Shown here piece after piece: positions 35,888-39,675 of a stretch of 64,000 nt of DNA. The position numbers and the translations under genes were made by a program. A model generated the notes under the pieces. That model saw only the letters and a list, made by a program, of their open reading frames with translations, did no database searches and was not told where the DNA came from. Each line of letters starts with the position of its first letter. The stretch's first letter is position 1. Source of the stretch: an uncultured Bacteroidales bacterium (GTDB lineage Bacteria; Bacteroidota; Bacteroidia; Bacteroidales; WCHB1-69); assembly GCA_900315705.1 (NCBI GenBank), contig ONAB01000011.1, forward strand, positions 1 to 64,000. The letters run 5' to 3'.

Positions 35888-37492
35888 ATGCGCACCTCCT
35901 TCAAGATACCCCACACCTTCACCATCGTCTTCAGCATCATCGTGGCCTGTGCCGCGCTCACCTGGATTGTGCCCGGCGGCGAGTTCGACCGGCAGGTGGT
36001 GAATGTGGACGGTCACGAGCGCAGCATCGTGGTCGAGAACTCCTACCACCACGTGGACAAGCAGCCCCAAACCTGGCAGGTTTTCACCTCCTTCTTCAAG
36101 GGCTTCGAGCGCACCGCCCCCATCATCGTCTTCATCCTGATGATTGGCGGCGCCTTCTGGATAATGAACGAGACCGACGCCATCAACCGCGGCATCCACC
36201 TCTTTCTGGCCCAGATGCAGCGAATGCAGCGGCGCAAACTCTTCCAGAAGGTGGGCGTGGACAGCCTGCTCATCATCGCCGTGATGCTGATGTTCAGCCT
36301 CTTCGGTTCCGTATTCGGGATGAGCGAGGAGACCATCGCCTTCATCGTCATCTTCGTGCCGTTGGCCATCTCAATGGGCTACGACTCCATCACGGGCGTG
36401 CTGATGTGCTATGTGGCGGCCCACATCGGATTCGCTGGCGCTATGCTCAATCCCTTCACCATCGGCATCGCCCAAGGTTTGTCGGGACTGCCCACCTTCT
36501 CCGGACTGGGCTACCGATTCTTCTGCTGGCTGCTGCTCACGGTAGTGGCCATCGTCTTCACATTGCTTTATGCCCGCTGGGTGAAACGCAACCCCACCAA
36601 GTCCATAATGTACGAGCTGGACCAATACTGGCGCGACAAGGCCGCCTCCACTGAGACGGGGCAGGAACTGGCCAAGTCCTCCATCGGCACGTGGGTGGTT
36701 TACGGCATCGTGTCGGCCGTGCTGCTCTATTGCGCCGTGACGATGCCGCGCACCGCCATCACGGTGGGCACGGGCACTCGCAACATCATTTTGTTTCCCT
36801 TCATTGCCGGCGGCTTTGTGCTGTTAGGGGCCATTGCTGCCTGGAAGTCGGCGCACCACTTCATCTTGACGCTGCTGCTGCTCACCATTGTCGTGTTAGT
36901 GACGGGCGTGCTGGGCTACGGCTGGTATGTGATGGAGATTGCCGGCCTCTTCTTCGCAATGGGCATCGCCGCCGGATTTGCCTTCGGGATGGGGCTCGAC
37001 CGCATCGTGAGGCTCTTTTTGGAGGGCTGCAAAGACATCCTCACGGCCGCCCTGGTGGTGGGCCTCGCGGGCGGCATCATCGTCATACTCGAAGACGGCA
37101 AGGTCATCGACACGATGCTGTATGCCATCTCGCAGGGAATGGGCGATGCCGGGCGCATCGGGGCCACCGCCTCGATGTATGTGGTGCAGAACCTGCTCAA
37201 CCTGATTATCCCCTCCGGCTCCGCCAAGGCCGCGCTCACCATCCCGATGATGGCCGAGTGGTCGGACCTGATGGGCGTCTCGCGTCAGCTGACGGTGCTG
37301 GCCTTCCAGTTCGGCGACGGCTTCACCAATATGATCACACCCACCTCCGGCGTGCTCATCGGCGTGCTGGGCGTGGCGCGCGTGCCCTACGCCCAATGGT
37401 TCAAGTTCATCTGGAAATTCCTGCTGGTGCTGCTGGTCATCGGGTTCCTCCTGCTGCTGCCACCCCTGTTTATGCCGTTTGCAGGGTTTTAA
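35888..37492 (+). CDS. yfcC: YfcC-family membrane transporter
   Basis: 534 residues with about a dozen hydrophobic helices. It begins with FKIPHTFTIVFSIIVACAALTWIVPGGEFDR, has GSVFGMSEETIAFIVIFVPLAISMGYDS mid-way, and ends with conserved NLIIPSGSAKAALTIPMMAEWSDLMG and FGDGFTNMITPTSGVLIG, all hallmarks of the YfcC/DcuC-like ion-transporter superfamily (proposed amino-acid or C4-dicarboxylate substrates). The substrate is not deducible. Its last 12 codons and most of the stop are copied exactly at 39638-39675, with the low-GC island in between. The copied bases keep the reading frame and the stop. Confidence 0.88.
   Translation: MRTSFKIPHTFTIVFSIIVACAALTWIVPGGEFDRQVVNVDGHERSIVVENSYHHVDKQPQTWQVFTSFFKGFERTAPIIVFILMIGGAFWIMNETDAINRGIHLFLAQMQRMQRRKLFQKVGVDSLLIIAVMLMFSLFGSVFGMSEETIAFIVIFVPLAISMGYDSITGVLMCYVAAHIGFAGAMLNPFTIGIAQGLSGLPTFSGLGYRFFCWLLLTVVAIVFTLLYARWVKRNPTKSIMYELDQYWRDKAASTETGQELAKSSIGTWVVYGIVSAVLLYCAVTMPRTAITVGTGTRNIILFPFIAGGFVLLGAIAAWKSAHHFILTLLLLTIVVLVTGVLGYGWYVMEIAGLFFAMGIAAGFAFGMGLDRIVRLFLEGCKDILTAALVVGLAGGIIVILEDGKVIDTMLYAISQGMGDAGRIGATASMYVVQNLLNLIIPSGSAKAALTIPMMAEWSDLMGVSRQLTVLAFQFGDGFTNMITPTSGVLIGVLGVARVPYAQWFKFIWKFLLVLLVIGFLLLLPPLFMPFAGF
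37454..37491 (+). repeat. 38-bp direct repeat, left copy (3' end of yfcC)
   Basis: Begins CTGCTGCCACCCC and ends GCAGGGTTTTA. It is identical base for base to 39638-39675 and encodes the end of the transporter (LLPPLFMPFAGF plus stop). The bases on either side differ (G before here against A there; A after here against G there), which defines the ends. Confidence 0.95.
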
Positions 37493-37554
37493 TACTACAA
37501 TATACTGAAAACGGGGAACAGAACACAATCATCACTTATACAAAATCATCGTAT

Positions 37555-37932
37555 ATGACTAACCCTTCTCAACTCGCTAATAACAAATATCCATACGCCA
37601 TCAGCGAGAATGGTAAAACTATATACATACAGGAAATCAACGAAGAGAACAGACATAAGACCAGATACTTCTGTTTCGGTTGCAGATCCGAAGTCTTTCC
37701 TGTATCTGATAATGAACTAAAAGAATTCTACCTTGCAAGTCTCGCAAAAAAAGGTGTAGTCAGGTGGAGCCGTTTATGCTGCCATTCCCAATACCACATA
37801 AATAATACTATCATTTGCCGTCTGCCAAATAATCAAAAATGTCCTTGTTCTCATTATGAGTTGAATCCGATAAAAGCCGCACGAATTTTGAATAGGAGAT
37901 GGGATTTTATAATCATTAAAAATATAAACTGA
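37555..37932 (+). CDS. Small Cys-rich protein of unknown function
   Basis: 125 residues, starting MTNPSQLANNKYPYAISENG. A possible zinc ribbon is formed by YFCFGCRSEV (residues about 43-52) together with CCHSQYH and CPCSHYE further on. The first 50 residues faintly recall the N-terminus of CoiA-like competence proteins, but no conserved nuclease core follows, so this is not claimed. It is AT-rich like the rest of the island and lies just inside the left repeat. No promoter box was found upstream. Confidence 0.55.
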   Translation: MTNPSQLANNKYPYAISENGKTIYIQEINEENRHKTRYFCFGCRSEVFPVSDNELKEFYLASLAKKGVVRWSRLCCHSQYHINNTIICRLPNNQKCPCSHYELNPIKAARILNRRWDFIIIKNIN

Positions 37933-38196
37933 TTATTCTCAACAATAGCGTCTCCCTTTCGCACCGAGATGGCACAATGCTCAGGGCAAGATGCTCCCAC
38001 GGTGCGATTGTCACAGTACACGTTCTCCAGCAACAGAGTACACTACAAATATCTTGGTTCCTGATAATCAGGTCACTTCGAGACTACAATTAAAAAAAAT
38101 TGTATCTCATTTATTTTTTGTATATTTGCAGCGTTTTTGTTCAAAATATTTTATGCATTCATTTTTCTTGAACAAAACATTAAAACTGAAATTTTT
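37933..38196. other. Intergenic region of the island with a GC-richer pocket
   Basis: Positions about 37940-38060 are richer in GC than the surroundings and open on both strands. The minus strand reads LENVYCDNRTVGASCPEHCA and on to VEN, ended upstream by a stop codon, so it may be a fragment of a lost gene. The right part (38100-38196) is AT-rich and holds the antitoxin promoter. Confidence 0.4.
38121..38128 (+). promoter_or_regulatory. Promoter -7 box (TATATTTG) for the AbiE-type operon
   Basis: TATATTTGCAGCG, 69 nt before the antitoxin ATG at 38197. The leader is long for such a system and AT-rich. Confidence 0.6.
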
Positions 38197-38772: not shown

Positions 38773-38774
38773 TT

Positions 38775-39623
38775 ATGGAATTCGCTATTACTAAAGCTGA
38801 CTTGAAGAATCCGCTGCTGGCGGAAACGCTCCATTCATTGGCAGAATGTTACGCCGCTTTGAATATGGAATTGTACGTCGTGGGGGCTGTCGCGCGTGAC
38901 CTCGCACTACGCCTACTCAAAATAAACGACCCCTATCGTGGAACAATGGACTTAGATGCGGCTGTTCTTTTGGCGGATTGGGAGCAATACCAACAACTCA
39001 CGGAGATTTTACTGAATCACAGATTTCTTAAAGCTACTGAAAAACAACGCTTTTACTATGCGAGCACAACAGGGAACTATCGATATATGGTTGACATCGT
39101 GCCATTCGGAACAATTGCGCACCAAGAGCTTTTGGCTTGGCCCCCGGATGGTCATCCGGTTATGTCGGTTCGTTGTTTTGAAGATGTTATGTCCCACGCC
39201 GATACGGTGACAGTGGACAACACCTTCTCTTTTCATTTGGCCTCGTTGAGCGGGCAGTTCCTAATCAAGTTGGATGCGTGGCTGGACCGACATACGCTCA
39301 CCAAGAAGGACGCTTCGGATATGGTGCACATATTACGTAACGTGTATATGGCGTATGCGTTGTCGCGACAAGCGTTGCCTCCCGAAATCAACATTGAAGT
39401 CGGCGAGTTTGATATTGTCGTGGCCGGAGCGGAATGGATTGCCTCTGATCTATGCTTTATTTTGTCAAAGGAACACCGTCGGTTCTACGCAACAATGCTT
39501 CAAAACGAAGTGAATCAAGAAGAAAACAGTGAATTGATCAACGATTTGCTTGACGCTTCCGATACACGACAATACACAGTGTTTCGTCAAGCGATTAACC
39601 GAATGTCGCAAATATTATCCTAA
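38775..39623 (+). CDS. AbiEii-family nucleotidyltransferase toxin
   Basis: 282 residues. Nucleotidyltransferase-fold motifs: VVGAVARDLALRL (about residues 27-39), the metal-binding pair in GTMDLDAAVLLADWEQY, a further Asp in VDIVPFG, and the AbiEii signature LIKLDAWLDRHTLTKKDASD (about residues 165-184). Characterised AbiEii toxins transfer nucleotides and arrest growth, and AbiE pairs cause abortive infection by phage. All catalytic positions I can see are intact, so the toxin is probably active. The gene ends 14 nt before the right-hand 38-bp repeat. Confidence 0.82.
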   Translation: MEFAITKADLKNPLLAETLHSLAECYAALNMELYVVGAVARDLALRLLKINDPYRGTMDLDAAVLLADWEQYQQLTEILLNHRFLKATEKQRFYYASTTGNYRYMVDIVPFGTIAHQELLAWPPDGHPVMSVRCFEDVMSHADTVTVDNTFSFHLASLSGQFLIKLDAWLDRHTLTKKDASDMVHILRNVYMAYALSRQALPPEINIEVGEFDIVVAGAEWIASDLCFILSKEHRRFYATMLQNEVNQEENSELINDLLDASDTRQYTVFRQAINRMSQILS

Positions 39624-39637
39624 GCATAAACAACAAA

Positions 39638-39675
39638 CTGCTGCCACCCCTGTTTATGCCGTTTGCAGGGTTTTA
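39638..39675 (+). repeat. 38-bp direct repeat, right copy
   Basis: Exact copy of 37454-37491. It still encodes the transporter tail and, with the next base, a stop codon (TAG in place of TAA), though no open transporter frame leads into it. Confidence 0.95.

Follow-up and report, generated by a model that had tools for sequence, protein, structure and literature searches.

An AbiE-type toxin–antitoxin islet between two copies of a yfcC gene end in an uncultured Bacteroidales bacterium: a probable case of insertion with long target duplication

Introduction

How does a toxin–antitoxin pair come to stand between two identical copies of the end of a carrier gene, with no recombinase beside it? 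The question is raised by a stretch of 64,000 nucleotides from an uncultured Bacteroidales bacterium (assembly GCA_900315705.1, contig ONAB01000011.1, positions 1 to 64,000 of the forward strand; hereafter the window). In the window, a yfcC-type gene is followed by an AT-rich islet with a predicted AbiE pair, and beyond the islet the last bases of yfcC are found again. An initial annotation, made from the letters alone, proposed either a non-autonomous unit mobilised in trans or a hitherto unnoticed way for small defence cassettes to spread. We consider it probable that the islet was acquired horizontally and that its insertion at the yfcC 3' end duplicated about 38 bp of the target. Insertion with long target duplication was reportedly described for restriction-modification genes by Nobusato (2000) and Furuta (2010). 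Other genomes and loci are referred to below by our own G and L numbers.

The repeat and the empty site

The direct repeat is exact over 38 bp, with a spacing of 2184 bp (coordinates in Table 1). When up to three mismatches are allowed, the 38-mer has only these two copies in the window, where none is expected from 100 shuffles, and only these two in the whole 3.0 Mb, 47-contig assembly. The site lies inside a 138-kb contig. Copy 1 consists of the last 36 coding bases of yfcC and ‘TA’ from its stop codon. The stop is completed as TAA by the first base of the islet, while copy 2 instead reads on as TAG, like the nearest relative, G001. The islet has a GC content of 43.8%, compared with 60.4% for yfcC and 53.8% for the window. 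The description in the initial annotation of an AT-rich interval flanked by a perfect repeat of the yfcC 3' end is thus confirmed, and a direct repeat of the target bounds the islet on both ends, as in insertion with long target duplication. The yfcC product itself scores 379 bits with the NCBIfam YfcC model, under the 500-bit cut-off.

In G001, whose yfcC is 92.8% identical in protein, the islet is absent: a single yfcC end leads straight into sequence matching that to the right of copy 2. Window positions 39638-39705 are 87% identical over 68 bp to this single junction, at which a DUF5618 gene (2.7e-27) is convergent with yfcC and overlaps it by 23 bp. The 38-bp repeat covers 22 of the 23 overlap bases. 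In the window, the DUF5618 antisense frame persists as a relic ending in IIDRCALQMSKTLQTA and its stop codon, and the rest of the gene is gone. Since the repeat holds nearly the entire overlap and copy 2 the whole relic end, the duplication could have kept both genes whole.

A yfcC end was found in 36 of the 41 genomes of the genus, this one included. A second yfcC end (E 0.001 or better, no more than 19 candidates being scored in each genome) was found in none of the 35 others, and thus no other cargo lies between two copies there. Of the two signs of integration that the initial annotation had proposed to look for, the empty site is therefore present and other cargo beside the 38-mer was not found. 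The annotation would have given up integration if every relative carried both copies; the second end was found in this genome only. We also considered copy 2 as a decayed yfcC paralogue and rejected this, as copy 2 runs into the native DUF5618 junction. Taken from these comparisons, insertion of the islet at the yfcC 3' end is supported.

Genes of the islet

The antitoxin gene of the islet belongs to the AbiEi family by its PF09952 match. The adjoining nucleotidyltransferase gene is accepted as an AbiEii-family neighbour through its best plasmid relative, a Prevotella plasmid protein with 39.8% identity over 98%, which is annotated ‘nucleotidyl transferase AbiEii/AbiGii toxin’ and adjoins an annotated AbiEi. 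Matching plasmid records number 26, and most of those listed are annotated as AbiEii/AbiGii toxin. The PADLOC model PDC-M21B is matched with an E value of 1.7e-4. Searched alone against Pfam, the nucleotidyltransferase has no match; two of ten relatives match PF08843 weakly (best E 0.026). A sequence search of PDB structures gave no match, and the toxin homologue was not found in the viral contigs and phages in which it was looked for. The pair is thus a predicted AbiE-type (type IV) toxin–antitoxin system, in agreement with the initial annotation.

The Cys-rich protein named in that annotation does exist as an open reading frame (ORF), but it is most likely the internally deleted remnant of a CoiA-like protein of about 355 aa. 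Its N-terminus is 41% identical over 69 aa to the L166 protein, and only 1 of 1000 shuffles scores as well as its C-terminus against that of L166. Against L167 the C-terminus has no match (708 of 1000 shuffles are as good). The full-length homologues of about 355 aa match CoiA_N below the cut-off. Because this ORF is most likely a remnant, the islet would be composite accessory DNA rather than a neat cassette. As had been stated from the outset, no recombinase is present among the three likely genes of the islet, as judged from ORFs and Pfam; the search did not extend to integrases elsewhere in the genomes. A search for RNA families gave none.

Between the Cys-rich ORF and the pair lies a palindromic intergenic repeat with the core CCCTTTCGCACCG ... 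CGGTGCGAT. It has a single copy in this genome, six matches in G001 and three in G020, which hints at a donor of the G001/G020 lineage.

Table 1. Features at the yfcC 3' end (positions in the window)
Feature	Position	Strand	Basis
yfcC-type DcuC-family carrier gene, whole	35888..37492	+	ORF; PF03606 2.8e-102
Repeat copy 1, yfcC 3' end	37454..37491	+	Exact 38-bp repeat
Inserted islet, 43.8% GC	37492..39637	.	Absent from G001 site; GC
Cys-rich ORF (125 aa), likely what is left of a ~355-aa CoiA-like zinc-ribbon protein after an internal deletion	37555..37932	+	
Interspersed palindromic intergenic repeat	37950..38044	.	Copies in L111-L119
AbiEi-type antitoxin, winged helix-turn-helix and AbiEi_2	38197..38772	+	PF09952 2.6e-24, HTH_24 1.9e-6
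AbiEii-type nucleotidyltransferase toxin homologue	38775..39623	+	Annotated plasmid AbiEii homologues; weak PF08843 in relatives; PADLOC PDC-M21B
Repeat copy 2, relic of native yfcC end; antisense, 3' end of DUF5618 relic	39638..39675	+	Exact repeat; DUF5618 stop 39654-39656
Native right flank, further DUF5618 relic (with copy 2, ending in IIDRCALQMSKTLQTA and stop), remainder gone	39676..39705	-	G001 junction match

Distribution of the pair

The nucleotidyltransferase gene was found in 11 of 41 genomes in the genus, in 14 of 105 in the family and in 23 of 393 in a sample of the order. The pairs of G034, G014 and G017, at three other loci, have 85-90% protein identity to the window pair. In G034 and G014 the pair is 85-86% identical, yet yfcC only 71% and 81%, whereas seven genomes with a pair of 60-62% identity have a yfcC of 77-80%. 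This discordance argues for horizontal spread. The DNA common to the window, G034, G014 and G017 runs from the promoter to the toxin end only (about 38100-39613 of the window); thus, ends like those of a transposon are not conserved.

A named genome collection was scanned as well and yielded nine loci, of which two belong to the 85% class and seven to the 60% class. All are from uncultured Bacteroidales or Bacteroidetes or from Bacteroidales metagenome-assembled genomes, some with ruminant names in their titles. At four 60%-class loci (L104, L105, L106 and L109), direct repeats lie upstream of the AbiE pair, about 1.7 kb apart in most; these are perhaps tandem units with shared leaders.

Gene ends duplicated around other AbiE pairs

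The pair of G017 (L103) stands behind dnaK (HSP70) and is followed by a second dnaK end, 90% identical over 61 bp with the last 38 bp exact. The toxin gene there lacks about 140 internal residues and is fused in frame to the displaced dnaK tail, while the antitoxin frame is intact. The two dnaK ends are different alleles, dnaK-type downstream sequence follows both (by eye), and the second tail and its flank form one uninterrupted stretch in G030 and G020 (106-108 bp at 72-74%). The differing alleles and this continuity fit an anchor carried in with the insert. The G034 pair is flanked on both sides by the end of an ATPase-like gene (a relic; DUF4143 below the cut-off), the two copies being 80% identical over 123 bp. 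Extra gene body is present on one side, and a gene fragment separates pair and repeat.

Further cases lie at other targets. In G305, a 420-aa gene without a Pfam match is followed by the pair and then by 187 bp (90%) of that gene's end, up to the stop. Two genomes of one genus, G364 and G272, have an intact tRNA-Met, the pair and then a copy of the tRNA 3' part (77 bp at 81% and 69 bp at 86%, respectively). An extra 248-aa gene stands between tRNA-Met and pair in G272 (L274, reverse complement 4345-5091) and is absent at the G364 site; thus, content between the repeats varies. The repeat of G860 (122 bp at 85%) resembles a tRNA end by eye, and ARAGORN found no tRNA there. In G807, on a contig of 8.2 Mb, 191 bp at 91% span the region before a gene and that gene's 5' start.

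Repeats are thus long and variable between loci: 38, 61, 69-77, 122, 123, 187 and 191 bp. A fixed attachment site was considered and rejected, the dnaK and yfcC 38-mers being without similarity by eye and the other targets different. We likewise rejected 38 bp as a fixed duplication length shared by yfcC and dnaK, as the dnaK similarity extends to 61 bp and the others to 69-191 bp. The G014 site lacks a repeat, and when its sbcC end was used as a query, no clear empty site emerged.

Counts and controls

Across the class Bacteroidia, 51 AbiE pairs had testable flanks (14 from the genus and family, 20 from the order sample and 17 from the class sample). Seven of them, namely those in the window, G017, G034, G305, G364, G807 and G860, are flanked by a direct repeat that scores 56 bits or more (6 of 50 without the window). 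An eighth locus, that of G272, proved positive later and shares the tRNA-Met site of G364, giving eight loci at seven sites. It was missed initially because its flank is short; flank lengths differed (about 430-1500 bp), so that wider repeats were missed, as this case shows. One locus with 45 bits (L172, in G260) was scored negative because its repeat is an intergenic repeat occurring four times. Outside the 51 are L189 and L255, with a flank missing, and the fragments L269-L272, of which L270 and L271 were scanned and were negative.

As a control, flanks were swapped between loci: at the same threshold, 7 of 46 loci were positive with their own flanks and 1 of 600 with swapped ones, that one being the tRNA-Met tail common to G364 and G272. 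The control omitted G045 (negative elsewhere), and four loci that could not be parsed (L176, L177, L178 and L188) were negative elsewhere. A second control placed the same geometry at random; its result is given where the reading is weighed. The background rate of gene-end repeats around ordinary gene pairs is gauged by these controls only.

Listings of exact repeats were also inspected by eye, not blind. No second clean gene-end case was seen among repeats of at least 18 bp in 104 kb of the window's contig, nor among those of at least 22 bp in 391 kb of relatives and contig stretches or in 370 kb of first stretches (contigs C1-C20 of the genome). The entries are simple, intergenic, paralogue or protein-internal repeats, some touching ORF ends. 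Among them, L197 (G000 contig C5, 1-5300) has spaced repeats, many about 1.43-1.45 kb apart, encoding by eye YRYFFNGQEADNEV-like stretches, which we take to resemble Rhs core ends. L050, L051 and L057, in three genomes, contain intergenic repeats that are 30-86 bp long, have GGCCGTTAGGTCTGCAGGG- or TTGCCCGCACACCTAACGGC-like cores and lie about 1.1-1.2 kb apart.

How the islet may have entered

Entry was probably an insertion free of a recombinase and anchored by homology. Recombination without a dedicated enzyme would bring the islet in; one end would be anchored by short homology to the target, the gene end, and the other joined illegitimately within that same gene end, so that two copies of it remain. 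Gene 3' ends would be over-represented among the survivors, since a duplication there keeps the host gene whole, and the toxin–antitoxin pair may help the insertion persist by addiction. That the anchor arrived with the insert is suggested by the alleles of G017 and by the additional gene body at G034.

Several points weigh against this account. The identical copies in the window fit a plain target duplication as well as an anchor, and identity to G001 shows no step along yfcC that would mark a donor tract. The target is a clear 3' end at four sites, in one case that of a tRNA, and the 3' ends of genes and tRNAs are the classic targets of integrases; in G807 it is the 5' part of a gene that is duplicated. 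At the first test 44 of the 51 loci had no flanking repeat, among them G014, all seven 60%-class loci (best 31 bits) and both 65%-class loci. Such insertions may be old and their repeats decayed, or the pairs may have arrived by another route. When 400 places of the same geometry were taken at random from stretches of the genus, the score of the window was reached at 9 of them, the G017 score at 4 and the G034 score at 3; simple, paralogue or protein-internal repeats make up the top rows. As to horizontal spread, the yfcC of G017 (only 89 aa compared) is as similar as its pair and adds nothing. Many relatives, moreover, are fragmented drafts.

Integrase islands at gene and tRNA 3' ends duplicate the 3' end and keep the target whole, and cis-mobilizable elements (CIMEs) do this without a recombinase of their own. 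The repeats could accordingly be the attL and attR of a non-autonomous element, CIME-like or a mini-island, moved by a tyrosine recombinase in trans. Here too, gene and tRNA 3' ends are duplicated with the genes left whole, no integrase was seen between the repeats, G272 has its additional gene between tRNA and pair, and an integrase in trans would fit the tRNA-Met site above all. However, neither a shared attachment sequence nor other cargo at the same site was found, repeat lengths vary from 38 to 191 bp, and the 35 other genus genomes with a match offer no second yfcC end. The gene fragment between pair and repeat in G034 and the duplicated 5' part in G807 also speak against it. Since the duplicated targets (dnaK, a DUF4143-like gene, the 420-aa gene, tRNA-Met tails and a 5' part) are unrelated, one integrase would not be expected to produce them, and we regard such an element as unlikely. 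Of the integrase-type entry in the initial annotation, insertion at the yfcC 3' end thus stands, with the empty site of G001, but integrase attachment, in cis or in trans, is not borne out, with other pairs lying between unrelated duplications.

It is also conceivable, though we think it improbable, that a close donor already had the islet behind its yfcC, and that recombination within yfcC together with a slipped right end displaced the old tail, so that the insertion itself made no duplication. The two dnaK alleles of G017, with their two downstream regions, are compatible with this, as is the palindromic repeat of the islet, single here and multi-copy in G001 and G020. Yet the two copies are identical although G001 differs within the same 38 bp, yfcC has no identity step along its length, and wherever else in the genus the toxin gene was found (ten genomes), it and the yfcC end are on different contigs. 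Movement by an unknown transposase with long target duplication would explain why direct repeats bound the insert at unrelated sites, but no ends are shared past the gene pair (the G034, G014 and G017 matches stop at the promoter and the toxin end) and repeat length is not fixed; we find this very improbable. We give equally little credence to an artefact of metagenome assembly. Fragmented drafts are common among the relatives, and the nine collection records are from uncultured bacteria; against this, 38 bp seems to us short for a false join, the site lies inside its 138-kb contig, and the anatomy recurs across assemblies, including the G807 contig of 8.2 Mb.

Relation to known systems and significance

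The preferred reading, insertion of an AbiE islet with long target duplication, can be compared with several known systems. Like integrase islands and CIMEs, the duplication of the 3' end leaves the target gene whole; unlike integrase islands, no integrase was seen between the repeats, and there is no common attachment site and no constant repeat. As in AbiE type IV systems, an AbiEi_2 antitoxin is followed by an AbiEii-type nucleotidyltransferase, but the toxin homologue is divergent, with no Pfam match alone and a best annotated plasmid relative at the identity given above, and is known here from its sequence.

According to papers that cite the original work (PMC3031569, PMC3874152, PMC1643837), insertion with long target duplication was proposed on the basis of two Helicobacter pylori genomes and often involves restriction-modification genes. 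Another paper cites it where restriction-modification systems are said to share the apparent mobility of toxin–antitoxin systems (PMC2654758). The present loci resemble those cases in that a small addiction or defence unit is flanked by a long, variable direct duplication of the target, and differ in the AbiE cargo, the Bacteroidia hosts and the several sites at gene 3' ends. At 38 bp, the duplication in the window is shorter than those of restriction-modification genes, which are put at ‘in the order of 100 bp’. For displaced immunity genes of the type VI secretion system, homology-facilitated illegitimate recombination has been invoked (PMC5361080). The arrangement described there, with a homologous anchor on one side, an illegitimate joint on the other and the old gene end displaced downstream, is like the one proposed here; in our case, only a gene end is displaced and the pair stands at unrelated genes.

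No report of long target duplication for AbiE was found among the titles and abstract beginnings listed, in a literature coverage without most subscription papers. The suggestion of an unnoticed way for small defence cassettes to spread thus came close, although the pattern had been named in 2000 for restriction-modification genes. The insertion is real and follows a pattern that is known but has been little studied; what is new is the class of cargo, and the sites are several and independent. Identifiable targets are present at eight loci (seven sites) in the class Bacteroidia, and one locus has a clean empty site.

These loci bear on how small defence and toxin–antitoxin units without mobility genes spread. 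Whether addiction units trap rare illegitimate insertions, and whether the duplicated gene end explains the location at gene ends, can be tested now. More tentatively, and with some doubt, AbiE pairs across Bacteroidia might be mobile units that enter without a recombinase, through end-of-gene homology and illegitimate joining that leave a second target end, the rare events being selected by addiction or phage defence. If this is true, long target duplication would serve small addiction and defence cassettes in general as a route, and would not be a peculiarity of restriction-modification systems.

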